NCBI GenBank assembly: GCA_913060875.1
Contig: CAJXSL010000009.1
Location: 62,001 to 126,000, forward strand
Length of the DNA: 64,000 bases
Direction of reading: 5' to 3'
DNA from: an uncultured Desulfobacteraceae bacterium
Lineage (GTDB): Bacteria > Desulfobacterota > Desulfobacteria > Desulfobacterales > UBA5852
Part shown: positions 10,389 through 35,579 of the stretch, in pieces
Numbering within the stretch: the first letter of the stretch is position 1
Layout of the letters: each line of letters starts with the position of its first letter
Made by a program: the position numbers and the translations under genes
Notes under the pieces: model-generated
The model's input: only the letters and a program-made list of their open reading frames with translations
Databases searched by the model: none
What the model was told of the DNA's origin: nothing

Positions 10389-11288
10389 GTGATCACTCCC
10401 GCCAACAGGCCGTCGTATAGCGGTGACACCAAGCCCTTTGTCTGGGCCGGCATCTCCCTGGCGATTCCGTCAGAATGGGAAACCGGCCAACTCGGCGAAG
10501 GCTATGCCCTGCTGGAATATCGATTCCGCCCGGCCATGGAGCTTAAAACCGCACCCATTCGGGGCCGATTTTCGTTCCCGCGTCATCTCAAGCAATTGAC
10601 CCGGTCGGGATTAAACCCGTCGCCCCCGCCCGTGAAACAGATACCCCCGCCGGCCGAATGGCCGGATTTCCCCCCGGAAGCGGAGTTGGCTTGCTTCTCC
10701 TGGAAGGGGGATCATTTAAGCGGCCAGGGCCTATTGTATTACTGCCGGCAATGCTGCCGGGCCACATTGCTCCAATTCTACGACCCGGTGGGCGACATGG
10801 CCCCCCGCGTGCTGGCCTCGTTTAAAGATCATGATACACAATCCGGCCCCACCTTTGCCGTCTATGACATTGCCGCAGTCCTGCCCGAGGCCTACCGGCT
10901 CACACGGTTTGCGTTCAATGCCGGCCGCTTTGAACTCGTTTTCAGCCATGCCGGGGCCGTGGTGACCCTGTGGCGCTGGAGCCCGGCCGACGTCCTTTTG
11001 GCGCGCGCGAAGGGTCATCTGACCCCCATCGTTCAGGCCAACGGTCTGCTCCCGGCTGTGGCGGCCCAGGACCCCGGGCATCCCGTCGAACAGGGTTTAG
11101 AGTGGCGCTGGCCCAACAGCAGCTGGCGAAACCGCCTGGGGCGTCTAAGAACAGCATCAGCCCCGCCCGTCAATGCACTGCGCATCTGGCACCGACCAGA
11201 TGCCAACCGAATCCTGGCGGTAGGGGCCGAAGGTGTTGCCGAAGGGGATATTTTTGACAGGATTTGCCGATCGTATGGGATTATTTAG
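10389..11288 (+). CDS. Soluble protein of unknown family, linked to PqqD-like gene
   Basis: This 299-residue protein has no signal peptide or membrane helix and I cannot assign it to a family. Two parts are visible. The N-terminal half has the pattern FVWAGISLAIPSEWETGQL, a beta-rich 'V/I-P-x-x-W-E' opening. The second half, from about residue 155, has LPEAYRLTRFAFNAGRFELVF followed by TLWRWSPADVLL. A Cys cluster YYCRQCCRA lies between them and could bind metal or form disulfides. It starts with GTG six bases after the preceding stop and its last 14 bases overlap the PqqD-like gene, so the two products are probably made together. Confidence 0.65.
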   Translation: MITPANRPSYSGDTKPFVWAGISLAIPSEWETGQLGEGYALLEYRFRPAMELKTAPIRGRFSFPRHLKQLTRSGLNPSPPPVKQIPPPAEWPDFPPEAELACFSWKGDHLSGQGLLYYCRQCCRATLLQFYDPVGDMAPRVLASFKDHDTQSGPTFAVYDIAAVLPEAYRLTRFAFNAGRFELVFSHAGAVVTLWRWSPADVLLARAKGHLTPIVQANGLLPAVAAQDPGHPVEQGLEWRWPNSSWRNRLGRLRTASAPPVNALRIWHRPDANRILAVGAEGVAEGDIFDRICRSYGII

Positions 11289-11691
11289 AAAAAAAGCTGC
11301 CGCCCCCCGGTTGTCACGGGATGAAGCTCTGCGCTGTGTTCCCGTAAAAAGCGGGGCTATTCAGGCCTCCCGCACAACAGATGATGTCATCCGCTTGCGG
11401 TATCCGCTGGTCTTAAAACCCTGGATCGCCGAATTGGCACGGCGCTTTTCCAGCAGCCCGGCCAAACCACCGGCGCGCCAGTTGGAACTGGACGAATTGG
11501 GCAGTCTGACTTGGGATTTAATCGATGGGCACCGCTCAGTCGGTGACATCGTGCGGCAATTTGCCCGTCAAACCCAGGTACATCCCAAGGAAGCCGAAAC
11601 CGCAGTGACCCAATTCCTGCGGGAACTCGGACGACGCGGCATTATCGGGATGGCCCCGGGGCAGCGCAAGGGGAACAACCGGAAGGGATAG
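11275..11691 (+). CDS. PqqD-like protein
   Basis: This 138-residue protein carries a PqqD-type winged-helix fold. After LRYPLVLKPWIAELARRF comes the diagnostic LDELGSLTWDLIDG, then HRSVGDIVRQFA and a helix ending in FLRELGRRGII. PqqD domains (RiPP recognition elements) bind precursor peptides and present them to modifying enzymes, usually radical SAM proteins; none is encoded in this window. The ATG at 11275 overlaps the end of the preceding gene by 14 bases. It is the last gene of the operon and converges with the partner-switching operon. Whether it binds a peptide here is unknown. Confidence 0.75.
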   Translation: MGLFRKKAAAPRLSRDEALRCVPVKSGAIQASRTTDDVIRLRYPLVLKPWIAELARRFSSSPAKPPARQLELDELGSLTWDLIDGHRSVGDIVRQFARQTQVHPKEAETAVTQFLRELGRRGIIGMAPGQRKGNNRKG

Positions 11692-21694: not shown

Positions 21695-21793
21695 TCCGGA
21701 TTTTTCCGGCGTAACGGCCAGGGAACAGGCCCCCACAAAAATGCGGTAGCATTGCTGAACGTCCATCCCAACAGTGGTTCAGGGAGGCGTGAC

Positions 21794-24151
21794 ATGCCGA
21801 TTTTTCAGTCTTTTCGGGATCTGCGCATCCAGCACAAACTGCTGGCCGGCTATTCCGCGGTCTTCATCCTGTGCATCATCCTGGGTAGTATGGTCGTATA
21901 CTCCGTCGTCCGCCAGACGCTGGAATCCAATATCGAAAGCGAGCTGAAGAACACCACCACCTCGATTCTCAATATGGTCCGGACCTCGGCGGCCACCTCC
22001 ATCAAAAACCATCTCCGGGCCGTAGCGGAAAAAAATCACGACATCGCAGCCTATTTCCATGGGCAGGCGCTGGCCGGCCACCTCACTCAAAGCGAAGCCC
22101 GGCAGAGGGTCGCCGAAATCATCCTGAGTCAGTCCATCGGGGCCACCGGATACGTCTACTGTCTGGACAGTACCGGGATCATCAACGTTCATCCCAAGCA
22201 GGAATTGATCGGCGCCAATCTGTCCGAGTATGCCTTCATCCGTGAACAGACCGTCCGCAAGGACGGCTACCTGGAATACGACTGGATGAACCCCGGCGAG
22301 GCCCGGGCCCGCCCCAAGGCCCTCTACATGAATTATTTCGAGCCCTGGGACTGGATCATTTCGGTTTCGTCCTACCGGGAAGAATTTCACGAACTGGTGA
22401 ATGTGGACGACTTCCGCGACAGCATCCTCTCCCTGCAGTTCGGCCAGACCGGCTATTCCTATATCATCGACGAGCACGGCAACATGGTGCTGCACCCCCA
22501 GGTCAGCGGCAACTACCTGCATGCCAGGGACCGCAACGGCCTTGAATTCATCAAGGCAATCTGCGCCCGCAAAAGCGGCAAGATCACCTATTCATGGGAA
22601 AACCCGGGGGAAAACAGGGCCCGTGACAAACTGGTGATTTTCAACCACATTCCCGAATATCAATGGATCGTGGCCTCTTCCAGCTATCTCGACGAGTTTT
22701 ATGCCCCCCTGAACACCATGCACCGCCTGATCCTGGCCACTGTGCTCATGTCCTTTATCATCGTTTTGCCGCTGACGCTGACCATCAGCAATTCCATCAC
22801 CACCCCCCTCAAGCAACTCATGAACCATTTTTCATCCGGCGCCGGCGGCAATTACAGCGTCCGCATGGAGCGGCGCTCCAGGGACGAAATCGGTCGTCTG
22901 GCCAACTACTTCAACCAGTTCATGGAACGGCTGGAAGCCTACAGCAGCAGCCTCGAAAACGAAATCAACGAAAGGGAGCGCCTGCAGCATTACCTGGCCA
23001 GCATCATTAACTCGATGCCGTCCGTTCTTGTGGGGGTCGACCGCTGGGGACGCGTCACCCAATGGAACCGCGCCGCCGAGAAGGCCACCGGGGTAAGCAG
23101 CGCCGAAGCCCGCAACCAGAATCTGGGACACATCTATCCCCTCATGCAGCCCCTGGGCGGCATGGTCAAAGAGGCCATCCGCGAACGAAGCGTCCGGCAG
23201 GCCGAAAAGGTGGCCTATCCGATGGGCGGTCAGATTCATTATGCCGACATCATGGTCTACCCCCTGGATATCGAGACTCTGGAAGGCGCTGTCATCCGGA
23301 TCGACGACGTGACGGCCCGGGTGCGCATGGAAAACACCATGGTGCAGACGGAGAAAATGCTCTCGGTGGGGGGGCTGGCCGCCGGCATGGCCCACGAAAT
23401 CAACAACCCCCTCAGCGGCATCCTGCAAAGCGCCCAGAATATCGTGCGCCGCCTCGATCCGGCCCTGGCCGAGAACCACACCGTGGCAGCCCTGTTCGGA
23501 ACCGACCTGGCCAGCATCCGTGGCTATCTGGAAGCGCGGGGGATCAGCCGGTTTATCGACGGCATCCGCCAGTCCGGCGAAAGGGCCTCCACCACGGTCG
23601 CCGATATGCTCCATTTCAGCCGGCCCAGCGATGCCCGCCTGGTGCCGACCGCGATGGAAGAATTGCTTGAAAAAACAGTGGCCCTGGCGGCCCATGACTA
23701 TGACCTGCGCAAAAAATACGACTTCCGCCAGATTGAGATCGTGCGCGAATATGAAGACGGCCTGCCGCCGGTCCCCTGCGTGGCCACTGAAATCGGCCAG
23801 GTCATCCTGAATCTCCTGCGCAACGCGTCCCAGGCATTTGGTCCGGCCGGCGCGACCAAGGGCACACCCCGCATTACCCTTCGCCTTTCCCGTGAACCCG
23901 GCTTCGTGCGTATCGAAGTGAACGATAACGGCCCGGGCATGGATGAAGAAACCCGCAAACGGGTTTTCGAACCCTTTTTCACGACCAAAGACGTGGGGGT
24001 GGGCACCGGTCTGGGGCTGTCGGTATCGTATTTTATCGTGACCAGTCACCACCGGGGCACCATGGCAGTGGATTCCGCCCCCGGGAAGGGCGCACGCTTC
24101 ACCCTGCGACTGCCGTGGGGCGACAAAATGCCCCCCGCGGGTAAACCTTAA
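21794..24151 (+). CDS. Sensor histidine kinase with tandem Cache domains, HAMP and PAS
   Basis: This 785-residue membrane sensor has one N-terminal helix (about residues 16-40). Two periplasmic Cache modules follow, seen in the parallel segments TGYVYCLDSTGIINVHP and TGYSYIIDEHGNMVLHP, each followed by a DWI/QWI-V-S-S-Y pattern. Next come a second helix, HAMP (PLKQLMNHF), PAS (NSMPSVLVGVD), the phosphoacceptor MAHEINNPLSG near residue 534 and a HATPase domain with LRNASQAF, DNGPGM and GTGLGLSVSY. GGGAGG precedes the ATG. It lies 15 bases before a sigma-54 response regulator and upstream of a carboxylate transporter and acyl-CoA synthetase, so a small carboxylate signal is a reasonable inference. 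Confidence 0.93.
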   Translation: MPIFQSFRDLRIQHKLLAGYSAVFILCIILGSMVVYSVVRQTLESNIESELKNTTTSILNMVRTSAATSIKNHLRAVAEKNHDIAAYFHGQALAGHLTQSEARQRVAEIILSQSIGATGYVYCLDSTGIINVHPKQELIGANLSEYAFIREQTVRKDGYLEYDWMNPGEARARPKALYMNYFEPWDWIISVSSYREEFHELVNVDDFRDSILSLQFGQTGYSYIIDEHGNMVLHPQVSGNYLHARDRNGLEFIKAICARKSGKITYSWENPGENRARDKLVIFNHIPEYQWIVASSSYLDEFYAPLNTMHRLILATVLMSFIIVLPLTLTISNSITTPLKQLMNHFSSGAGGNYSVRMERRSRDEIGRLANYFNQFMERLEAYSSSLENEINERERLQHYLASIINSMPSVLVGVDRWGRVTQWNRAAEKATGVSSAEARNQNLGHIYPLMQPLGGMVKEAIRERSVRQAEKVAYPMGGQIHYADIMVYPLDIETLEGAVIRIDDVTARVRMENTMVQTEKMLSVGGLAAGMAHEINNPLSGILQSAQNIVRRLDPALAENHTVAALFGTDLASIRGYLEARGISRFIDGIRQSGERASTTVADMLHFSRPSDARLVPTAMEELLEKTVALAAHDYDLRKKYDFRQIEIVREYEDGLPPVPCVATEIGQVILNLLRNASQAFGPAGATKGTPRITLRLSREPGFVRIEVNDNGPGMDEETRKRVFEPFFTTKDVGVGTGLGLSVSYFIVTSHHRGTMAVDSAPGKGARFTLRLPWGDKMPPAGKP

Positions 24152-24166
24152 GAGGGAAAGAACGCC

Positions 24167-26101
24167 ATGCGCAAAGCACGCCTGCCCATGCCCTCTTCGG
24201 CCCATCGTCCGGTCAAGATTCTGGCCATCGACGATGAGCCCGTCATCCGTGACAATATCGCCTCCTATCTGGAGGACAGCGGCTTCAAAGTTCTGCAGGC
24301 CGGCGACGGCCAGGAAGGACTGGCCCTTTTCCGGGAACAAGCGCCGGACTTGATCCTGCTCGATCTGCGGATGCCGGGTATGGACGGGCTGGCATTTCTG
24401 GAAACCCTGCAAGGGGAAGCCTCCGACACCCCGGTCATCGTCGTTTCCGGCACCGGCGTGCTGCAGGATGCCATTGAAGCCCTGCGCGCCGGGGCCCATG
24501 ATTTTGTCACCAAACCCATCATCGACATGGCCGTCCTGGAGCATGCCATTCAAAACGCTCTGGAACGCGCCCGCCTCCGTCAGGAAAACAACCGCTACCG
24601 GCAGCATCTTGAAGAAGAAATCGCCCGCCGCACGGCCGACCTGGTGGAGCGTACCCGGGAACTGGAAGCCTCCAACCAAAACTTGAAAAAGGAAATCGTT
24701 CAGCGCAAACAGGCCGAAGCGACCCTGCGCAACCGCGAACAAAAATTCCGGGAGCTGGCCGATCTCCTGCCGCAACCCGTGTTTGAAATCGATCAGGCGC
24801 AGCAGTTCTCCTTCATCAACCGCTATGGCGCTGAAATCCTGGCCGGGGGGGACCAGGCCCGCATCGCTCAAATGACCGCAAAGGACATCTTCAGCCCCGA
24901 CACCCATCCCCAGATCGCGGCGGCCATGCGTCAGATCATGGCGGGCAAAGGCCCGGTGGAATTCGAAGCGGTGGTCCTCCGCCGGGACCAAACCCTCTTC
25001 CCGGCCATGGTCTATGCCAGCCCTATCATCCGCGCCGGCGACCTGGTCGGTTTGCGTGGCATCCTCTTCGACCTGACGGCAATTCGCAAAGCCGAGGAGG
25101 CGCTCCGGGCCAGTGAAGCCCAATTACGCCAGGAAAACTTGCGCCTGCGATCGTCGTTGAAAGACCTCGGGCGCTTTGGCCGCATTATCGGTAAAAGCCA
25201 CGCCATGCACGAAGTTTACCAGGTGATTCTTAAAGCGGCCGGATCCAGCGCCAACGTCATCATTTACGGCGAATCCGGCACCGGTAAGGAACTGGTAGCC
25301 CACACCATCCACGAATTGAGCGATCGAAGCCACCGTACTTTCGTTCCCGTGAATTGCGGTGCGATTCCGGAAAACCTTCTGGAAAGCGAATTCTTCGGCC
25401 ACAAAAAGGGCGCTTTCACCGGCGCCCACAAGGACAAACCCGGATTTCTGGCCGAAGCCGACGGTGGCAGCCTTTTCCTGGACGAAATCGGCGAGATCAA
25501 TCCCAACCTCCAGGTAAAACTGCTGCGCGCCATCGAAGGGGGCGGCTACACACCCATCGGCAGCAACGAGACGGTCATGCCTGATATCCGCATCATTGCC
25601 GCTACCAATCGCGATCTCACGGAAGAAGTCCGCCGAGGCAACCTGCGGGATGATTTTTTCTATCGGATCCACATTATCCCCATTCACCTGCCGCCCCTGC
25701 GCGACCGCCGGGAGGACATCCCGCTTCTCATTCAACATTTCCTGCAATCATTAAGCGATGCTGACACCCTGCCGGTCATGCCCGAACATGCCATCCAGTC
25801 CATGGTGCAGCGGGATTGGCCCGGAAATGTCCGTGAACTGCAAAATGCCGTTCATCGCTTCATCACCCTGAACTCGGTTGAAGCCGTGGAGGTGTCGGCA
25901 CCGCCGCAGGGGCCTCCCACCGACCCAACGGTGCCGCCATTGGAGCCCACGCTATCCCTGAAAGCAGCCATGGGCCACTACGAAAAGCAATACCTTCTCC
26001 GGGTGCTGGAAGCTCACCAGTGGCGCCGAGCCCGCGTCGCGACCCTCCTGGGCGTTGACCGCCGCACCCTCTTTCGTAAAATGAAGGTTCATGGGCTATA
26101 A
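24167..26101 (+). CDS. Sigma-54-dependent response regulator (REC-PAS-AAA+-Fis)
   Basis: This 644-residue activator has a receiver domain with acceptor Asp66 (LLDLRMPGMDG) and a coiled segment. A PAS domain (about residues 195-305) precedes a sigma-54 AAA+ domain with Walker A GESGTGKE, GAFTGA for sigma-54 contact and Walker B GGSLFLDEIGE. It ends with a Fis-type helix-turn-helix (VATLLGVDRRTLFRKMK). The cognate kinase is directly upstream. The next intergenic region contains a sigma-54 promoter, making the transporter/synthetase pair its likely target. The extra PAS domain suggests a second input. Confidence 0.95.
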   Translation: MRKARLPMPSSAHRPVKILAIDDEPVIRDNIASYLEDSGFKVLQAGDGQEGLALFREQAPDLILLDLRMPGMDGLAFLETLQGEASDTPVIVVSGTGVLQDAIEALRAGAHDFVTKPIIDMAVLEHAIQNALERARLRQENNRYRQHLEEEIARRTADLVERTRELEASNQNLKKEIVQRKQAEATLRNREQKFRELADLLPQPVFEIDQAQQFSFINRYGAEILAGGDQARIAQMTAKDIFSPDTHPQIAAAMRQIMAGKGPVEFEAVVLRRDQTLFPAMVYASPIIRAGDLVGLRGILFDLTAIRKAEEALRASEAQLRQENLRLRSSLKDLGRFGRIIGKSHAMHEVYQVILKAAGSSANVIIYGESGTGKELVAHTIHELSDRSHRTFVPVNCGAIPENLLESEFFGHKKGAFTGAHKDKPGFLAEADGGSLFLDEIGEINPNLQVKLLRAIEGGGYTPIGSNETVMPDIRIIAATNRDLTEEVRRGNLRDDFFYRIHIIPIHLPPLRDRREDIPLLIQHFLQSLSDADTLPVMPEHAIQSMVQRDWPGNVRELQNAVHRFITLNSVEAVEVSAPPQGPPTDPTVPPLEPTLSLKAAMGHYEKQYLLRVLEAHQWRRARVATLLGVDRRTLFRKMKVHGL

Positions 26102-26112
26102 TTGACCATTTT

Positions 26113-26194
26113 TGGGACATTTTTGTCATTTCCCGAAATTTCACATATTTTAAAGTATTTACATTGTAAGAGTCGTTAAAATGTGACAATTTTG
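26113..26194 (+). promoter_or_regulatory. Candidate activator-binding sites upstream of the sigma-54 promoter
   Basis: TGGGACATTTTTGTCA (26113-26128, containing GACA/TGTC arms) and TGTGACAATTTTG (26182-26194) are near-repeats starting 69 bases apart. They lie about 95-175 bases upstream of the -24 element, where enhancer-binding proteins usually bind. This is inferred from position and similarity only. Confidence 0.35.
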
Positions 26195-26286
26195 CCTCTT
26201 TTTTAAATTTCATTCATTCTTCATAGGCCGTCTTAATCCCTATCTATATATTAGTTGTTTAAAGACTTTCTAAATCGTAAATTTTG

Positions 26287-26302
26287 TGGCATATGAGTTG
26301 CA
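26287..26302 (+). promoter_or_regulatory. Sigma-54 (-24/-12) promoter
   Basis: TGGCAT, five bases, then TTGCA matches the RpoN consensus TGGCAC-N5-TTGCA with the required spacing between the invariant GG and GC. Transcription would start near 26314 and run into the transporter gene. The upstream neighbour is a sigma-54 activator. Confidence 0.75.
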
Positions 26303-26500
26303 CTGCCATGGGCATCCTGTTTCGGAAAATGCCGCCAAAGACATTTTCCGGCGATCGACCCCGAAAGGAGGTGGCCAGCAGCAAGACCGGTCGCGCACAG
26401 GAAAGACGCTTCATCACGGGATGACACCGGGAGATTACAGCCCGCGGTCCCGCCGGAAATAAGCTTCATTGCCTGAATACATAAACTTTAGGAGGATGAC

Positions 26501-27121
26501 ATGGCAGAGCAGCAGCAAATGGGTAATCCCGCAGTGGTCGGACTGGCAGGGTTTGGATTGACAACCATGGTTCTTCAGTTTCACAATGTCGGCTGGATGG
26601 GTATCGGCCCGGTTTTAGCCTTGGCCATTGCCTTCGGCGGGGGCGCCCAATTGATCGCCGGTTTCCAGGAATTTAAATGCGGCAACAATTTCGGCTACAG
26701 CGCCTTTGTTTCCTACGGCTCGTTCTGGATCGCCCTGGGCATCATTTTTCTGCTCAACCATTTCGGCATCTACAAAGCCAGCGGGACGGACGTGGGCTGG
26801 TTCCTCGTTGCCTGGACCCTTTACACAGCGATCCTCTGGGTGGCGGCCATGCGGGTTCACGGTGCCATGGCCATCACGTTCACACTCCTTCTCATCGGCT
26901 TCATTCTCCTGGATCTCGCCCACTTCGGCTACCCTGCCCTGACGAAAGTGGCCGGCTATGAACTCATGGCCTGTGCTGCGGCTGCCTGGTATATGATGGC
27001 CCATGTCATTTTTCTCCAGGTTTTCGGAAAAGACATTCTGCCGGTTGGGAAGCCTTGGATCACCGGCGAAGCGGAAAAGGTCAAAGGCACTCCGCTGGCT
27101 GCCAAAGCCCCTGCCCGTTGA
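26501..27121 (+). CDS. Acetate/succinate-type transporter, GPR1/FUN34/YaaH family
   Basis: This 206-residue protein has six hydrophobic segments and the family signature NPAVVGLAGFG at residues 8-18. FQEFKCGNNFGYSAFVSYG follows, as in SatP-type carriers. Members move acetate, propionate or succinate with protons. AGGAGG lies before the ATG. It is followed by an acyl-CoA synthetase gene and preceded by a sigma-54 promoter, which suggests uptake and activation of a short-chain acid. The exact substrate cannot be read from the sequence. Confidence 0.92.
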   Translation: MAEQQQMGNPAVVGLAGFGLTTMVLQFHNVGWMGIGPVLALAIAFGGGAQLIAGFQEFKCGNNFGYSAFVSYGSFWIALGIIFLLNHFGIYKASGTDVGWFLVAWTLYTAILWVAAMRVHGAMAITFTLLLIGFILLDLAHFGYPALTKVAGYELMACAAAAWYMMAHVIFLQVFGKDILPVGKPWITGEAEKVKGTPLAAKAPAR

Positions 27122-27245: not shown

Positions 27246-29150
27246 ATGACCAATCTGTATGAAGACGCCTATGCGAAATCCTTGAATGACCCGGAATCCT
27301 TCTGGGGCGAAGCGGCCGAAGACTGCCACTGGTATAAAAAATGGGACAAGGTTCTGGATGATTCCAACAAACCTTTTTACCGCTGGTTTACCGGGGGCGT
27401 CTGCAACACCTGTTACAATGCGCTGGATTTTCACATCGAGAACGGACGCGGTGATCAGGATGCCCTCATCTATGACAGTCCGGTCACCGACACCATAAAG
27501 AAATACACCTATAGCCAACTCAGAGACGAAGTCGCCAAATTCGCCGGTGTCCTGGTCAACCAGGGGGTTACCAAAGGCGACCGGGTGATCATCTACATGC
27601 CGATGATCGCGGAAGCCGCCATTGCCATGCTCGCCTGTGCACGCCTGGGGGCCGTCCATTCGGTGGTTTTCGGCGGATTTGCCGCCAAGGAACTGGCCAC
27701 CCGCATCGAAGACGCCAAACCCAAAGTCATCGTGTCGGCGTCCTGCGGTATCGAAGTTAAAAAAGTCATAGCCTACAAGCCCCTGCTGGATGAAGCCATC
27801 GAATTTTCCAGTTCCAAACCCGAAAAATGCGTCATCCTGCAGCGGCCCATGGAAACGGCCGGCATGATGGAAGGCCGTGATGTGGACTGGATGGAGGCCA
27901 TGGCCGCGGCCCAGCCCCAGGATTGCGTCCCGGTGGCGGCCACGGATCCGTTGTACATTCTCTACACCTCGGGCACCACCGGTCAGCCCAAAGGCGTCGT
28001 GCGCGACAATGGCGGTCACATGGTGGCCCTGAAGTGGACCATGAAAAATATCTACGATATCGATGCCGGTGATGTCTATTGGGCGGCCAGTGATGTCGGC
28101 TGGGTGGTGGGCCATTCCTATATCGTCTACGCGCCACTCTTCAAAGGCGCCACGACCATCCTGTTCGAGGGCAAACCGGTGGGCACCCCTGATGCCGGCG
28201 TTTTCTGGCGGGTCATCTCCCAGCACGGCGTCCGATCGCTTTTCACGGCGCCCACCGCTTTCCGGGCCATCAAGCGCGAAGACCCGGAAGGAAACCTGAT
28301 CAAACAATACGACCTTTCCAACTTTAAATACCTGTTCCTGGCCGGGGAGCGTTCGGATCCGGACACGATCCAGTGGTCCGAGCGGAACCTGCAAGTCCCG
28401 GTCATCGATCACTGGTGGCAGACCGAGACCGGCTGGGCCATTGCCGCCAACTGCATGGGCCTGCACCAGTTTCCGGTCAAATATGGCTCCCCCACCAAGG
28501 CGGCACCGGGCTGGAACCTGCAAGTGGTGGATGCCGACTGTAAACAGGTGGCACCGGGCGAAATCGGCGCCCTCGTGGTCAAGTTGCCGCTGCCGCCGGG
28601 CACCCTGCCCACGCTCTACAAGGCGGATGAACGGTACAAGGAGGCCTACCTCGAGGAATTTCCGGGCTACTACAAGACCGCCGACGCGGGCTATATCGAT
28701 GATGAAGGCTATGCCTACGTCATGTCGCGCACCGACGACATCATCAATGTGGCCGGACATCGCTTGTCCACCGGCGCCATGGAAGAAGTGCTTGCCGACC
28801 ATCCGGATGTGGCCGAGTGCGCGGTGCTCGGGGTGGAAGACAGCCTCAAGGGACAGATTCCCATTGGCTTCGTGGTCCTGAACGCCGGTGTGGATCGCGG
28901 CCACGACGACATTACCAAGGAATGTGTCCAGATGGTCAGGGACCGTATCGGTCCGGTGGCGGCCTTTAAGACGGCGACCGTGGTCAAACGGCTCCCCAAG
29001 ACCCGCTCCGGTAAAATCCTGAGAGGGACCATTCAGAAAATCGCCGACAACAAGGACTACAAAGTCCCGGCCACCATTGATGATCCGACGATTCTGGGCG
29101 AGATCGAAGATGCCCTGAATACCATTGGCTTGGCCGCGTCGCGGAAGTAG
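27246..29150 (+). CDS. prpE: Propionyl-CoA / acetyl-CoA synthetase (AMP-forming)
   Basis: This 634-residue ANL-family ligase has the core motif YTSGTTGQPKG, the WWQTETGW motif, the YKTADAGYIDDEGY hinge region and the C-terminal catalytic lysine in PKTRSGKILRGT. The N-terminus (YEDAYAKSLNDPESFW) and the sequence EDAKPKVIVSASCGIE resemble PrpE-type propionate ligases more than Acs. Placement directly upstream of the methylmalonyl-CoA genes supports propionate. AAGGAAAG precedes the ATG. Acetate activity is also likely, since the family is promiscuous. Confidence 0.88.
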   Translation: MTNLYEDAYAKSLNDPESFWGEAAEDCHWYKKWDKVLDDSNKPFYRWFTGGVCNTCYNALDFHIENGRGDQDALIYDSPVTDTIKKYTYSQLRDEVAKFAGVLVNQGVTKGDRVIIYMPMIAEAAIAMLACARLGAVHSVVFGGFAAKELATRIEDAKPKVIVSASCGIEVKKVIAYKPLLDEAIEFSSSKPEKCVILQRPMETAGMMEGRDVDWMEAMAAAQPQDCVPVAATDPLYILYTSGTTGQPKGVVRDNGGHMVALKWTMKNIYDIDAGDVYWAASDVGWVVGHSYIVYAPLFKGATTILFEGKPVGTPDAGVFWRVISQHGVRSLFTAPTAFRAIKREDPEGNLIKQYDLSNFKYLFLAGERSDPDTIQWSERNLQVPVIDHWWQTETGWAIAANCMGLHQFPVKYGSPTKAAPGWNLQVVDADCKQVAPGEIGALVVKLPLPPGTLPTLYKADERYKEAYLEEFPGYYKTADAGYIDDEGYAYVMSRTDDIINVAGHRLSTGAMEEVLADHPDVAECAVLGVEDSLKGQIPIGFVVLNAGVDRGHDDITKECVQMVRDRIGPVAAFKTATVVKRLPKTRSGKILRGTIQKIADNKDYKVPATIDDPTILGEIEDALNTIGLAASRK

Positions 29151-29252: not shown

Positions 29253-29431
29253 TCTTCCTTGGATCGATCATCGCCCAAAGCATGGATACGTCGGCATGGT
29301 TGTTGCTGCGATTTCGCCTGAACTGAAGGTCCATTGAAATAGTCGTTTACAGCCGCCATTGCCATGACATAGGGTAATTGGGAACCCATCACCAAATATC
29401 TCGTGATGGAGAACCCCGGGAAGGAGAACCC

Positions 29432-29833
29432 ATGCAGATATTGAAAATCGATCATTTGGGGATTGCCGTCAACAGTATCGACGAGGGCAAAAACTTCTGG
29501 TCCGATGTGCTCGGCCTGGCGTTCGAGGGCGCCGAAACCGTCGAGGCTCAGAAGGTAACCACGGCCTTTTTCCCGGTGGGGGAAAGCGAAGTGGAACTTT
29601 TGGAATCCACCAGTCCGGACGGTCCCGTGGCTAAATACATCGAGAAACGCGGCCAGGGCATCCAGCACGTAGCGTTTAGGGTGGCCAATATAGAAGAGGC
29701 CTTGGAAGAATTGAAGGCCAAGGGTATTCGTCTCATCGACGAGAAACCCCGCATGGGGGCCGGCGGGGCCAAGATTGCGTTCCTGCACCCCAAGGCCACC
29801 AACGGCGTATTGGTGGAATTGTGTGAACGTTAG
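29432..29833 (+). CDS. mce: Methylmalonyl-CoA epimerase
   Basis: This is a 133-residue glyoxalase/VOC-fold enzyme that interconverts (S)- and (R)-methylmalonyl-CoA. It has [14 protein letters not shown] with the metal His near the start, the second-half His in GIQHVAFRV, and the C-terminal segment [17 protein letters not shown] typical of the family. AAGGAG precedes the ATG at 29432. The mutase, carboxyltransferase and MeaB genes follow, so the pathway assignment is firm. Confidence 0.95.
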
Positions 29834-30011: not shown

Positions 30012-30062
30012 ATTTATTTGATAACCAGATTTTTTCGACGCGATTCTTCACAGGAACCATCA

Positions 30063-30692
30063 GTGCCCAAGGTAACGCCCGTTCGAAACCATCTGCCCGA
30101 ACCCGATCTGCGACCGGATGTGCACGCACGATTGGAGAAAGCCGTTCTGGAAATCTTTTCCGAATCCGATTTCCACAAGGCCAATATCCGTGATGTGGCG
30201 CGCAAGGCCGGTGTCAGCTTCACCACGATTTACAAGCATTACGGCAGCAAAGAACGTCTGCTGTTCAGCTTCGTGGACATCTGGCTGGGGAAGCTGACCG
30301 AACGCATCATCGATCACTTGCAGGGGATCGAGGATCTGAAGGAAAAGATGCGCAAGGTTTACTGGCTGCAGCTGGACTATTACGAACGGCACCAGGGCCT
30401 GGGGAAAATCCTGTTCATGACCCTGCCCATGCAGACCTGGATGTCGGACCAGACCTTCCGCCAGAAGCGGATGATCAACCTCTATCTGGAAGTCCTCAAA
30501 AAAGGCCAGGCCGAAGGTGTCTTGAACCCCCATGTCCGGGCCGGCGTCCTGCTGGATTTCATGCTGGGCAGCGTCCAGCGGGCCTTTTTCATGTGGGTTT
30601 CCCGGGGGCAAAAGGAAAGCCTGTCCGGGCAATCCCAGGTCCTTTTTGACATGGTATGGCGCGCCATCGTTCGCCCAAACGATAATCCGTGA
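30063..30692 (+). CDS. TetR-family transcriptional regulator
   Basis: This protein of about 209 residues has a TetR DNA-binding domain: AVLEIFSESDFHKANIRDVARKAGVSFTTIYKHYGSKERL is the classic helix-turn-helix, here cited only to locate it (about residues 26-65). The C-terminal ligand domain resembles no specific family I can name. The start is uncertain. GTG at 30063 follows AGGAA at a good distance; TTG at 30018 would run into the palindrome. It sits between the epimerase and mutase genes, so an acyl-CoA ligand is plausible. Confidence 0.85.
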   Translation: MPKVTPVRNHLPEPDLRPDVHARLEKAVLEIFSESDFHKANIRDVARKAGVSFTTIYKHYGSKERLLFSFVDIWLGKLTERIIDHLQGIEDLKEKMRKVYWLQLDYYERHQGLGKILFMTLPMQTWMSDQTFRQKRMINLYLEVLKKGQAEGVLNPHVRAGVLLDFMLGSVQRAFFMWVSRGQKESLSGQSQVLFDMVWRAIVRPNDNP

Positions 30693-30767
30693 TGCACGAC
30701 CGCTGCATTAGGCGGTTGCGCGTTGCTTAACGGCTTTGCGGCTCAACACGATCATAAGGAGAGCACC

Positions 30768-32891
30768 ATGGCAGAACATCCCGAATTGACGCAGTGGAAG
30801 GAACTGGCCGAAAAACAGATGAAGGGCAAATCCGTGGACACCCTCAACTGGAACACGCCCGAGGGGATTCCAGTCAAACCGCTTTACACGGCCAAGGACC
30901 TTGAAAGTATCGAACATTTGAATGCCCTGCCCGGTATGGCGCCTTATGTTCGCGGCCCCATGGCGACCATGTACGCCGGCCGTCCCTGGACCATTCGCCA
31001 ATACGCCGGATTTTCAACGGCCAAAGAATCCAATGCCTTTTACCGGCGCAACCTGGCGGCCGGTCAGCGCGGCCTCTCGGTGGCCTTCGACCTGGCCACC
31101 CACCGGGGTTATGACTCCGACCATCCGCGGGTGGCCGGCGACGTGGGCAAGGCCGGGGTGGCCATCGATTCGGTCGAAGACATGAAAGTCCTTTTCGACC
31201 AAATCCCGTTGGACAAGATGTCCGTTTCCATGACCATGAACGGGGCCGTCCTGCCGATCATGGCCGGCTACATCGTGGCGGCCGAAGAGCAAGGCGTGAA
31301 ACAGGAACAGCTTGCCGGCACCATCCAGAATGACATCCTCAAAGAATTTCTGACCCGCAACACCTATATCTATCCGCCGGTGCCGTCCATGCGGATCGTT
31401 TCGGACATCATCGGATACTGCTCCCAGAACATGCCCAAATTCAATACGGTCAGTATCAGCGGCTACCACATGATGGAAGCCGGCGCCAATTCCGTGCTCC
31501 AATTGGCTTTCACCCTGGCCGATGGCGTCGAATACGTGAAAGCCGCCATCGATTCCGGCATGGATATCGATGCCTTTGCGCCCCGCCTGTCGTTTTTCTT
31601 CGGCATCGGCATGAATTTTTTCATGGAAATTGCCATGCTGCGCGCGGCCCGCTTCCTGTGGCACAAACTGATCAGCCGCTTCAATCCTAAAAACCCCAAA
31701 TCCACCATGCTGCGGACCCATTGCCAGACCTCGGGCTGGAGTCTCACGGAGCAGGATCCCTACAACAATATCATCCGCACCACCCTGGAATGCATGTCCG
31801 CCGTCCTGGGCGGCACCCAATCCCTGCATACCAATTCGTTTGACGAAGCCGTGGGGCTGCCCACCGACACCTCGGCCCGTATCGCGCGCAACACCCAGTT
31901 GGTGGTGCAGCACGAAAGCCAGGTTTGCCATGTAATCGATCCCCTGGCCGGCTCTTACTATGTCGAATCCCTGACGGCCAGCCTCTATAAAGAAGCGGAA
32001 AAAATCATCGACGAAGTGGAAGCTCTGGGCGGCATGGCCAAGGCCATCGAAACCGGCATGCCCAAGATGCGGATCGAAGAGTCGGCGGCCCGCCGCCAGG
32101 CCCGCATCGATCAGGGGCTGGACGTCATCGTCGGCGTCAACAAATTCCAGTTGCCCGACGAAGAACCGCTGGATGTCCTGGAAGTCCCCAGTACCGTAAG
32201 GGACGAACAGGTCGCCCGACTGGAGGCCCTCAAGGCGAAACGCGACAATGCGGAAGTCGAGCGCTGCCTGCAGGCGGTCACCCAGGCGGCGGAAACCGAT
32301 GGCAACCTGATGGCCGCCTGTATCCCCGCGGTCCGGGCCCGGGCCACGGTGGGCGAGATATCGGATGCCATTGAAAAGGTGTTCGACCGCTACGTGGCAA
32401 CGACCCAGTGCATTTCCGGCGTATACGCGGCCGAATTCGGCGACAGCGAAATTATCGCGTCCCTGCGCAAGCGGACGGGCGATTTTGCCGAGCAGCAAGG
32501 GCGGCGCCCCCGCATCCTGCTGACCAAAATGGGGCAGGATGGCCACGACCGGGGCATCAAAGTCGTGGCCACCGCGCTGGCCGACCTTGGATTCGACGTG
32601 GATATCAGCCCCATGTTCCAGACGCCCCAGGAAGCTGCCAAAATGGCGGTTGAAAACGATGTCCACATGGTGGGCGCCTCCAGTCTGGCGGCCGGGCACA
32701 AAACGCTCGTCCCCGATCTCATCGAGGAGCTGAAAAAGCTGGGCGGCGGGGATATTCTTGTGTTCGTCGGTGGGGTCATCCCGCCCAAGGACTATGGCTT
32801 TCTGGAGGACAAGGGCGTATCCGGTATTTTCGGACCCGGGACGCCGATCACGGATTCGGCCAATAAAATCCTCAACGCCCTGGAGGCTTGA
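30768..32891 (+). CDS. Methylmalonyl-CoA mutase, full-length B12-dependent
   Basis: This 707-residue enzyme rearranges (R)-methylmalonyl-CoA to succinyl-CoA. The catalytic barrel has [30 protein letters not shown] and the substrate region [10 protein letters not shown]. The C-terminal B12 domain has the base-off motif DGHDRG near residue 593 and [12 protein letters not shown]. Both domains are in one chain. AAGGAG precedes the ATG at 30768. Its stop overlaps the meaB start by one base (TGATG). Confidence 0.97.
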
Positions 32892-33886
32892 TGCATCCGC
32901 CGGCTTCAACCGACGACTACGTCAACGGTGTCCTGAACGGCGACCGGCGCCTGCTTTCGAAGACGATCACCGTGATCGAAAGCGCTCTCGGTCGCCACAA
33001 AGACATGGCCCGTGCCATTCTGAATCAGCTTCTGCCCCACACGGGCAAAGCGGTCCGCCTGGGCATTACCGGCGTGCCGGGGGTTGGTAAAAGTACGTTT
33101 ATCGAAAGCCTCGGCATGGCGCTGATTAACAAGGGACACAAGGTCGCCGTCCTGGCGGTGGATCCCAGCTCGACACGCAGCGGCGGCAGCATCATGGCCG
33201 ATAAAACCCGTATGGAACAGCTATCGGTCCAGGCGGATGCCTTCATCCGGCCCAGTCCCTCCGGCGGCACCCTGGGCGGCGTGGCGCGCAAAACCAGGGA
33301 AACCATGCTGGCCTGCGAGGCAGCGGGCTTCGACGTCATGATCGTGGAAACCGTGGGCGTCGGCCAGTCGGAGACCGCTGTGGCGTCCATGGTGGACTTT
33401 TTCCTGGTCCTGATGCTGGCCGGCGCCGGGGACGAGCTGCAGGGCATCAAAAAAGGCGTTCTGGAACTGGCCGATGCCATCACCATCACCAAGGCGGACG
33501 GCGACAATGTTGCCAAAGCCAAACAGGCCGCCCGGGCGTACGCTTCGGCCCTGCACCTCCTGTCACCGGCATCGGCCAACTGGTCGCCACCGGTCTTAAC
33601 GTGCAGTGCCTTGTCCCAGGATGGCATCGACGACGTCTGGCAGACGGTTTTGGACCATCGCGCGCGCATGCAGGCTTCCGGCGAATTCGACATCAAACGG
33701 CGCGGCCAGGCTCTGGATTGGCTCCAGGCCCTCTTGGACGAAGGCCTGCGGGAACGCTTCATGCGCCACCCCGAAATTGTACGGCATCTGCCCCGCTGTC
33801 AGCGGGCGGTGGCAAGGGGCGAAACATCGCCGACCGTAGCGGCCGGTGAGCTCCTTTTTTTCCTTGACAACCCCAAGTCACCATAG
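32891..33886 (+). CDS. meaB: MeaB/ArgK-type GTPase chaperone of methylmalonyl-CoA mutase
   Basis: This G3E GTPase of about 331 residues protects and reactivates the mutase. The P-loop is GVPGVGKST, followed by LAVDPSSTRSGGSIMADKTRM, VETVGVGQSE and the guanine-specificity motif TKAD. Its one-base overlap with the mutase gene implies equimolar expression. ATG at 32891 is preferred over TTG at 32888. Confidence 0.96.
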   Translation: MHPPASTDDYVNGVLNGDRRLLSKTITVIESALGRHKDMARAILNQLLPHTGKAVRLGITGVPGVGKSTFIESLGMALINKGHKVAVLAVDPSSTRSGGSIMADKTRMEQLSVQADAFIRPSPSGGTLGGVARKTRETMLACEAAGFDVMIVETVGVGQSETAVASMVDFFLVLMLAGAGDELQGIKKGVLELADAITITKADGDNVAKAKQAARAYASALHLLSPASANWSPPVLTCSALSQDGIDDVWQTVLDHRARMQASGEFDIKRRGQALDWLQALLDEGLRERFMRHPEIVRHLPRCQRAVARGETSPTVAAGELLFFLDNPKSP

Positions 33887-34025
33887 GATCTAAGTGATTT
33901 CGATTTAGTTACTGATCAACATTTTAAATGCTCACTAAAATCATGCCGATTGATTAATATATTAACGCATTAGTGGTTGGTGCCCGTTATCGAGAAACAT
34001 GGCCACGGGAGAAAGGAATCGTCTA

Positions 34026-35579
34026 ATGGGTGTTACGGAAGACAGAATCAAAGCACTCAAGGAAAAAGAAAAGAAGATCCTTGGGATGGGCGGCGAGAAA
34101 GCGGTCGCCAAGCACAAAGACAAGGGCAAACTGACGGCCCGGGAGCGACTCGATGCCTTGTTTGATCCCGGCACGTTCCGGGAAATCGACATGTTTGTCA
34201 CCCATCGCTGCACCAATTTCGGCATGGAAAAAGTCGAGATCCCTTCCGATGGTGTGGTCACCGGCCATGGCCGGGTCAACGGCCGAACCGTGTTCGCTTT
34301 TGCCCAGGATTTCACCTCCCGGGCCGGCAGCCTGGGGGAAATGCACGCCAAAAAAATCTGCAAGGTGATGGATCTGGCACTGAAAGCGGGAGCCCCCTTT
34401 GTGGGCCTGAACGACTCGGGCGGTGCCCGTATCCAGGAAGGGGTCGACGCCCTCTCGGGCTACGGACAGATCTTCTTCCGCAACTCCGCCGCCTCGGGAG
34501 TCATCCCCCAGATTTCCGCCATCATGGGACCGACGGCGGGGGGGGCGGTGTATTCCCCGGCCATGACCGATTTTATCTTCATGGTCAAAAATACCAGCTA
34601 TATGTTCATCACCGGCCCGGAAGTGATCAAATCCGTCACGGGAGAAGAGATCACCTTCGAAGAACTGGGCGGCGCCATGACCCACAACGAAAAAAGCGGC
34701 GTGGCCCATTTTGCGGCGGAAAACGACGCCGACTGCATCGAGCAGATCAAAAAGATGCTGTCTTATTTGCCCGCCAACAACATGGAGGATCCACCCATCG
34801 TGGACACCGGGGATGATCCCCGCCGCACGGCACCCGAGTTGGATACCATCATTCCGGACAATCCCAACCAGTCCTACGACATGAAGGCCGTCATCCAATC
34901 TATTGTCGACAACGGCGAAATCTTCGAACCTCACGCGTATTTTTCTCCGAATATACTGGTCTGTTTTGCCCGCTTGAACGGCCGCACCATCGGCATCATC
35001 GCCAACCAACCGGAAGTCATGGCTGGCTGCCTGGACATCAATGCTTCGGATAAGGCCACCCGCTTCATCCGCTTCTGCGACGCCTTCAACATCCCCATGC
35101 TGACCATCGCCGATGTTCCGGGCTACCTGCCCGGCAGCAACCAGGAGTGGGGCGGCATCATCCGCCATGGCGCCAAACTGCTCTGGTGCTATTCCGAAGC
35201 CACGGTGCCCAAGCTCCTGCTGGTGACCCGCAAGGACTACGGCGGCTCCTACCTGGCCATGTGCTCCAAGGACCTGGGCGCCGACATGGCCTTTGCCTGG
35301 CCGTCGGCCGAAATCGCCGTCATGGGCGCCGCCGGGGCCGCCAATATTATCCACCGAAAAGAAATCAAGGGGGCCGACGATCCCAAAGCCAAGCGGGAAG
35401 AGAAGATCAAGGAATACGAAGCGCTCTTCTCCAATCCCTATTGCGCAGCCAACCGCGGCTATATCGATGCGGTTATCGTGCCCAGCGAAACCCGGTCACG
35501 ACTGATCGACGCCCTGGAAGCCCTGTGCACCAAACGCGAACTGCGCCCGGCCAAAAAACACGGCAACATCCCGATGTAG
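34026..35579 (+). CDS. Acyl-CoA carboxyltransferase (methylmalonyl-CoA transcarboxylase / MmdA-type)
   Basis: This 517-residue crotonase-fold carboxyltransferase has FVGLNDSGGARIQEGVDALSG and GPTAGGAVYSPAMTDF in the N-terminal half, and IADVPGYLPGSNQEWGGIIRHGAK with RKDYGGSYLAM in the C-terminal half. Such subunits exchange CO2 between biotin and propionyl-CoA. No biotin carboxylase is encoded nearby, while a keto-acid carboxyltransferase with its own biotin domain is two genes downstream. A methylmalonyl-CoA:pyruvate transcarboxylase is therefore the best reading; a decarboxylase or propionyl-CoA carboxylase subunit is an alternative. Confidence 0.9.
   Translation: MGVTEDRIKALKEKEKKILGMGGEKAVAKHKDKGKLTARERLDALFDPGTFREIDMFVTHRCTNFGMEKVEIPSDGVVTGHGRVNGRTVFAFAQDFTSRAGSLGEMHAKKICKVMDLALKAGAPFVGLNDSGGARIQEGVDALSGYGQIFFRNSAASGVIPQISAIMGPTAGGAVYSPAMTDFIFMVKNTSYMFITGPEVIKSVTGEEITFEELGGAMTHNEKSGVAHFAAENDADCIEQIKKMLSYLPANNMEDPPIVDTGDDPRRTAPELDTIIPDNPNQSYDMKAVIQSIVDNGEIFEPHAYFSPNILVCFARLNGRTIGIIANQPEVMAGCLDINASDKATRFIRFCDAFNIPMLTIADVPGYLPGSNQEWGGIIRHGAKLLWCYSEATVPKLLLVTRKDYGGSYLAMCSKDLGADMAFAWPSAEIAVMGAAGAANIIHRKEIKGADDPKAKREEKIKEYEALFSNPYCAANRGYIDAVIVPSETRSRLIDALEALCTKRELRPAKKHGNIPM

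Follow-up and report, generated by a model that had tools for sequence, protein, structure and literature searches.

Gene arrangement and the sigma-54 promoter element

The window, by which we mean the whole 64-kb stretch of DNA that was analysed, carries the genes of a two-component pair, a sigma-54-type promoter element, and genes for a transporter, an acyl-CoA ligase and proteins of the methylmalonyl-CoA pathway. The features concerned are as follows.

21752..24151, + strand: sensor histidine kinase with two Cache modules, HAMP, PAS, HisKA and HATPase (Pfam dCache_2 5.6e-46, HAMP, PAS, HisKA, HATPase_c)
24167..26101, + strand: response regulator / sigma-54 activator with REC, PAS, AAA+ and Fis-type HTH (Pfam Response_reg 1.5e-31, Sigma54_activat 7e-65, HTH_8 1.1e-10)
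26112..26131, + strand: candidate upstream activating sequence (UAS) 1, TTGGGACATTTTTGTCATTT (12/16 to the consensus TTGGGACA-N4-TGTCCCAA; same place in orthologous loci)
26181..26200, + strand: candidate UAS 2, ATGTGACAATTTTGCCTCTT (10/16 to the consensus, 69 bp after UAS 1; weak alone)
26287..26302, + strand: sigma-54 -24/-12 promoter element, TGGCATATGAGTTGCA (GG 26288-26289, GC 26300-26301; predicted +1 about 26313)
26501..27121, + strand: SatP-type (GPR1/FUN34/YaaH) monocarboxylate transporter (NCBIfam AceTr_1 NF038013 132.5 bits, cut-off 50; Pfam PF01184)
27246..29150, + strand: PrpE-type propionate-CoA ligase, an AMP-forming acyl-CoA ligase (best NCBIfam model PRK10524 prpE, 752 bits, cut-off 955)
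29378..29833, + strand: methylmalonyl-CoA epimerase, context and possible operon member (TIGR03081 159.6 bits, cut-off 114.95)
30018..30692, + strand: TetR-type regulator, context (Pfam TetR_N)
30723..32891, + strand: methylmalonyl-CoA mutase, context of the propionate oxidation pathway (PRK09426 1250.7 bits, cut-off 876)
32888..33886, + strand: MeaB GTPase, context (PRK09435 494 bits, cut-off 329)
33999..35579, + strand: acyl-CoA carboxyltransferase / methylmalonyl-CoA decarboxylase alpha type, context (TIGR01117 894 bits, below the cut-off of 998.8)

The Pfam match to dCache_2 bears out the two Cache modules that the initial annotation had attributed to the upstream kinase, for whose gene translation more likely starts at an in-frame ATG at 21794. 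In the regulator, the GAFTGA loop is present in the translated AAA+ domain, and the combination of REC, AAA+ with GAFTGA, Fis-type HTH and an adjacent partner kinase identifies it as NtrC-type. An intergenic region of 399 bases separates it from the transporter gene, whose ATG has a ribosome-binding site, AGGAGG, 6-11 bases on its 5' side and whose product scores above the curated cut-off of the SatP / AceTr acetate uptake family. The promoter had been described as lying between a sigma-54 activator and carboxylate uptake genes; activator and transporter stand, yet the second gene serves activation (a CoA ligase) rather than uptake. The nearest named relatives are Desulfobacterales and Deltaproteobacteria records, which suggests that the organism is a sulfate reducer.

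The element at 26287-26302 reads TGGCAT-ATGAG-TTGCA and differs from TGGCAC-N5-TTGCW by one mismatch (T for C), its near-consensus hexamers being exactly spaced with GG and GC in exact register; the letters on the + strand thus agree with the initial claim of a sigma-54 site with one mismatch and exact spacing. It is the sole match with at most one mismatch within the window, whereas matches with at most two numbered 31 against 35.8 expected from shuffles, which makes a 2-mismatch match in the window uninformative. The genome to which the window belongs (5.88 Mb) has one rpoN (3.0e-62), and TGGCAY-N5-TTGCW has 47 occurrences in it, compared with 10 for the reversed pattern used as control; this motif class is therefore enriched, with a background of roughly one fifth. 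When the 17 orthologous promoter regions (350 bp each) were shuffled, 8 of 1700 shuffled versions held a site with no more than one mismatch. Placing the start 12 bases past the C of the GC gives a computed +1 at about 26313, within one base of the 26314 proposed earlier. We consider this element real and very probably functional. A leader hairpin at 26323-26350 (CGGAAAATG...CATTTTCCG) was considered as an RNA element and rejected, being not conserved in two genus relatives; the Rfam search gave only a tRNA elsewhere and nothing at the hairpin.

Conservation of the promoter and its candidate activating sequences

In two genus relatives that have the locus, AAATTTTGTGGCATATGAGTTGCACTGCCAT (slightly less at its first bases) is kept, followed by one variable base and then by a kept GGCATCC. 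Among the three genus species the rest of the intergenic region has strongly diverged while the promoter site is invariant. A 26-base core around the site is identical in three of five genus genomes; the two without it are 80-81% complete, and in one of them (L172) the contig ends inside the regulator. The genus-invariant block, 26280-26317, extends beyond the -12 element to about +5 and includes an imperfect TGCC-N3-GGCA repeat, which is more than sigma-54 alone should need.

By transporter similarity 80 loci were gathered, of which the 75 with at least 500 bp upstream were used and 5 dropped. Ten of the 80 have orthologues of both kinase and regulator directly upstream, and in each of these ten the 500 bases ahead of the transporter contain a site with no more than one mismatch. 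Over the 75 SatP loci, such a site was found in 21 of the 23 with an adjacent NtrC-type regulator versus 3 of the 52 without, with a Fisher value of 2e-13 that overstates independence because the sampled loci are related; the reversed pattern gave 0/75 and the opposite strand 1/75. Both misses with an adjacent regulator (L090, L106) have 2-mismatch sites at the usual distance, and L071 was scored as lacking an adjacent regulator solely because its gap exceeds 800 bp. Good sigma-54 sites before SatP were also seen in L048 (9768) and L064 (9703), where no NtrC-type regulator was matched alongside; the activator for these two must lie elsewhere.

A further 23 loci were gathered by the sensor domain, independently of the transporter. 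Thirteen have an orthologous NtrC-type regulator, and where the intergenic region is complete the site is present in 10 of 10, as against 0 of 8 loci with a LuxR-type regulator, anywhere in the stretch taken; left out were L172, L179 and L182 (incomplete regulator loci) and L193, also incomplete. The promoter thus goes with the type of regulator and not with the sensor. L186 has one sigma-54 site and no regulator match. Taking L174, L177, L180 and L181 as repeats of L087, L091, L047 and L105, each counted once, the -24/-12 site is found in all 17 species with an orthologous regulator and a complete intergenic region. On contig 14 of the window's own genome (L170, G000:C14:143000-153751) lies a two-Cache sensor paralogue, 56% identical, that is coupled to a LuxR-type regulator and adjoins a different acyl-CoA ligase and an SSS carrier, that is, the same sensor type with a different output.

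Upstream of the promoter, the 17 species have two copies of the palindromic consensus TTGGGACA-N4-TGTCCCAA, with centres at about -95 to -109 and -164 to -178 when counted from the start of the promoter element; in 15 of them the distance between the copies is 67-70 bp. Their summed score is 425 against 300 +/- 5 in shuffled regions (the largest of 200 shuffles reached 319); the consensus was read by eye from 11 sequences and then scored on those 11 and 6 more, and the shuffle test therefore gauges how strong the signal is and does not amount to discovering it independently. The spacing played no part in choosing the consensus. Of 850 shuffled regions, 27 gave a distance of 66-71 bp, and of the 6 species that joined the set later, 5 have the pair, L178 being the exception. 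As for the exceptions, the second copy was not recovered in L046, and in L178 neither copy is clear, both being weak. The pair is an addition to the initial annotation, and its copies are likely binding sites of the regulator.

It is highly improbable that the match at -24/-12 is fortuitous and that the genes are read from a sigma-70-type promoter. Chance should account for about 10 of the genome's 47 motifs of this kind and sigma-70-like matches do lie close by (26123-26151), yet these number 4 for a shuffle mean of 3.9, and the site is kept in 17 species and closely tracks the NtrC-type regulator. We also regard it as unlikely, though less so, that the transporter gene is one of many targets in a broad carbon regulon with no dedicated local switch. 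Regulators of this type can have several operons, and the searches for further targets miss sites as degenerate as the window's own. Within this sensitivity, however, the palindrome showed no excess in the own genome (28 matches vs 40 for the control), the strict pair pattern matched in only 2 of 291 genomes, G234 (this locus) and G171 (one other place), and the 32-bp promoter block has a single occurrence in the own genome. On contig 15 (L171, 4286-4412; G000:C15) a palindrome was noticed about 100 bp ahead of a sigma-54 site; the two precede a PEP-CTERM-like gene, and we took them as unrelated and rejected them as a further target.

Transporter slot, ligase and sensor pocket

Across the 17 species, the first gene behind the promoter encodes SatP in 14, a sodium:solute symporter (SSF) in two (L178, L187) and an MFS carrier in one (L184), the last scoring as a lactate carrier with 358 bits against a cut-off of 320 for the SfMCT model. 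Regulator, promoter and ligase remain constant while the transporter slot is swapped, and the PrpE-type ligase comes next in every species with enough sequence to show it, L087 stopping short of the gene. That unrelated carriers occupy the same slot under a single switch indicates a shared substrate class, and the swapped slot offers a clean natural experiment on the purpose of the circuit. In L047 the PrpE-type gene that follows SatP (10835-11370) looks fragmentary, with 68% over residues 1-88 and then 40% over 374-473; the promoter and the UAS pair are kept there despite this.

The ligase scores below the curated PrpE equivalog cut-offs (PRK10524 752 vs 955; TIGR02316 701 vs 827) and is therefore named PrpE-type rather than PrpE. 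Its nearest solved structure is 5gxd, at 949 bits versus about 450 for Acs. A change of Val386 to Ala in Acs admits propionate. The window ligase has Ala at this position and keeps Trp414; Ala is also found in 5gxd and in 2p2b, which we take to be the V386A mutant, and Val in the Salmonella Acs 1pg3. The same Ala motif was read in 13 of the 16 loci searched, L047, L087 and L101 giving no readable motif.

The solved sensors nearest by sequence are 4k08, 2qhk/4exo and 5g4y, and the predicted structure of the sensor (mean pLDDT 83.9) matches 4k08, 5g4y and 4exo across a single Cache module (target TM-scores 0.76-0.77). The acetate in 4k08, whose crystal was grown with acetate, is held by Tyr94, His107, Tyr147, Lys160 and two Trp (PMC3831638), and the 5g4y domain binds acetate, glycolate, propionate and pyruvate (PMC5062169). 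All 18 aligned sequences keep Tyr, His, Tyr, Trp and Lys in the first Cache module; the second module has the same residues, apart from one sequence of the 18 in which the second Tyr is replaced by His. In the kinase of the window the sensor domain, membrane ends excluded, covers residues about 49-336, and the pocket Lys of the two modules are K189 and K293. The position of Trp96 is Tyr in the aligned Cache modules (Phe in 2 of 18, second module). As judged by alignment, both modules retain the ligand residues of known acetate/propionate sensors.

Taken together, we propose, with a probability of about 0.83, that the locus is a self-contained sigma-54 switch answering to a short monocarboxylate, propionate being the most likely one. 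The kinase would bind the acid in its periplasmic Cache modules and phosphorylate the adjoining NtrC-type regulator, which would then assemble on the palindromes at 26112-26131 and 26181-26200, which precede the promoter by about 165 and 96 bp. From there its GAFTGA-bearing AAA+ domain would open RpoN-polymerase bound at 26287-26302. The predicted transcript would begin near 26313 and carry the transporter and the PrpE-type ligase, which may feed propionyl-CoA to the methylmalonyl-CoA pathway encoded just downstream.

The initial annotation had left the cue as propionate or acetate. Such a circuit is supported by conservation, by the tracking of the regulator, by the candidate UAS and by the pocket residues, and propionate is favoured over acetate because of the Ala at the Acs Val386 position and the methylmalonyl-CoA pathway genes downstream. 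A possible though less probable alternative keeps the circuit as described and lets acetate, lactate, pyruvate or C2-C3 acids generally, not chiefly propionate, be the cue; it overlaps our explanation in all but the ligand. The acids reported for 4k08 and 5g4y, the best solved relatives, would fit it, as would the naming of SatP as an acetate uptake family and the lactate-type score of the carrier in L184. Moreover, LuxR-type systems use this family of sensors too, in the own genome next to a different acyl-CoA ligase, and the ligand may therefore be another short acid. Against this stand the PrpE-type ligase with its Ala, the recurrence of that motif wherever it could be read, and the methylmalonyl-CoA pathway within the window. 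The locus offers a concrete candidate for propionate sensing in sulfate reducers of this group, with named candidate binding sites, and the prediction carries to Desulfosarcina alkanivorans, D. widdelii and D. cetonica.

Related systems and a second circuit before SatP

Anaerobic degradation has propionate as one of its main intermediates, and the organisms that consume it include sulfate reducers of this group. In Escherichia coli and Salmonella, PrpR and prpBCDE likewise place a sigma-54 activator beside a propionate-CoA ligase gene. PrpR governs the methylcitrate cycle as a one-component regulator, whereas the window regulator is two-component with REC and PAS and the nearby pathway genes are those of methylmalonyl-CoA; its identity as PrpR itself was rejected, given 258.6 bits for TIGR02329 against a cut-off of 499.2 and the lack of the PrpR N-terminal domain. 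CrbSR and MctSR are two-component systems controlling uptake and activation of short acids; CrbSR is, to our knowledge, not a sigma-54 system, and the window kinase reaches 89.7 bits with the MctS model, whose cut-off is 700. In Pseudomonas aeruginosa, AauRS-AatJQMP and MifSR are described as alike in their two-component enhancer-binding control of an organic or amino acid transporter, and differ in their ligands (glutamate/aspartate and alpha-ketoglutarate) and in using other transporters.

Another such system is DVU3023 of Desulfovibrio vulgaris Hildenborough, a two-component sigma-54-dependent regulator of a sulfate reducer whose mapped targets are monocarboxylate permeases and oxidation genes; it differs in answering to lactate rather than propionate and in having its targets scattered over several loci (PMC3333781, PMC4641369). 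Letters of the GGGACA or ACAAC type do not appear in the main texts of these reports (PMC3333781, PMC4641369). The sensor domains of PscD and Adeh_3718 share the Cache fold and the Y, H, Y, W and K ligand residues, yet these are described as single-Cache chemoreceptors, while the window sensor has a kinase output and one pocket Trp replaced by Tyr (PMC5062169, PMC3831638). The D. vulgaris sigma-54 study mentions propionate for E. coli only (PMC4641369), and the main text of a recent survey does not mention it (PMC12316311). Our literature search, whose coverage mostly excludes subscription journals, found no paper on this circuit. Two-component, enhancer-dependent carboxylate uptake is already known, also in sulfate reducers, and the proposed switch appears well supported but ordinary in kind. 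Desulfobacteria carry very many sigma-54 activators (PMC12316311), which makes it useful to assign one of them by conservation.

A different kinase-regulator pair stands before SatP in 12 loci (L053, L060, L071, L076, L078, L081, L086, L094, L095, L102, L103 and L118), which by record titles belong largely to Desulfopila, Desulforhopalus and Desulfobulbaceae. We refer to this arrangement, an unrelated sigma-54 circuit with an NtrC-type regulator, as circuit B, and to the one in the window, with its two-Cache kinase, REC-PAS-AAA+ regulator and two TTGGGACA-N4-TGTCCCAA sites 67-70 bp apart, as circuit A. Scans of three circuit-B kinases show a single Cache in each, and the scan of one circuit-B regulator shows REC-AAA+-Fis without PAS. 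All 12 promoter regions contain three ACAAC-N4-GTTGT sites, two of them 18 bases apart and one farther down, with 40 matches in total against a shuffle mean of 1.5 (largest 4). These sites were found in none of the 17 circuit-A regions, and circuit-A sites (at least 12/16) in none of the 12 circuit-B regions. We lean towards the view that sulfate reducers evolved sigma-54 control over the uptake of short acids on at least two occasions, the binding sites being unrelated and the sensors and regulators differing in build; circuit A would then be a fixed socket for SatP, SSF or MFS carriers before the same ligase, and circuit B would have captured SatP independently. L090 and L106 likewise have three ACAAC-N4-GTTGT sites, and in L050 and L073 a sigma-54 site lies directly before a ligase gene that precedes SatP.
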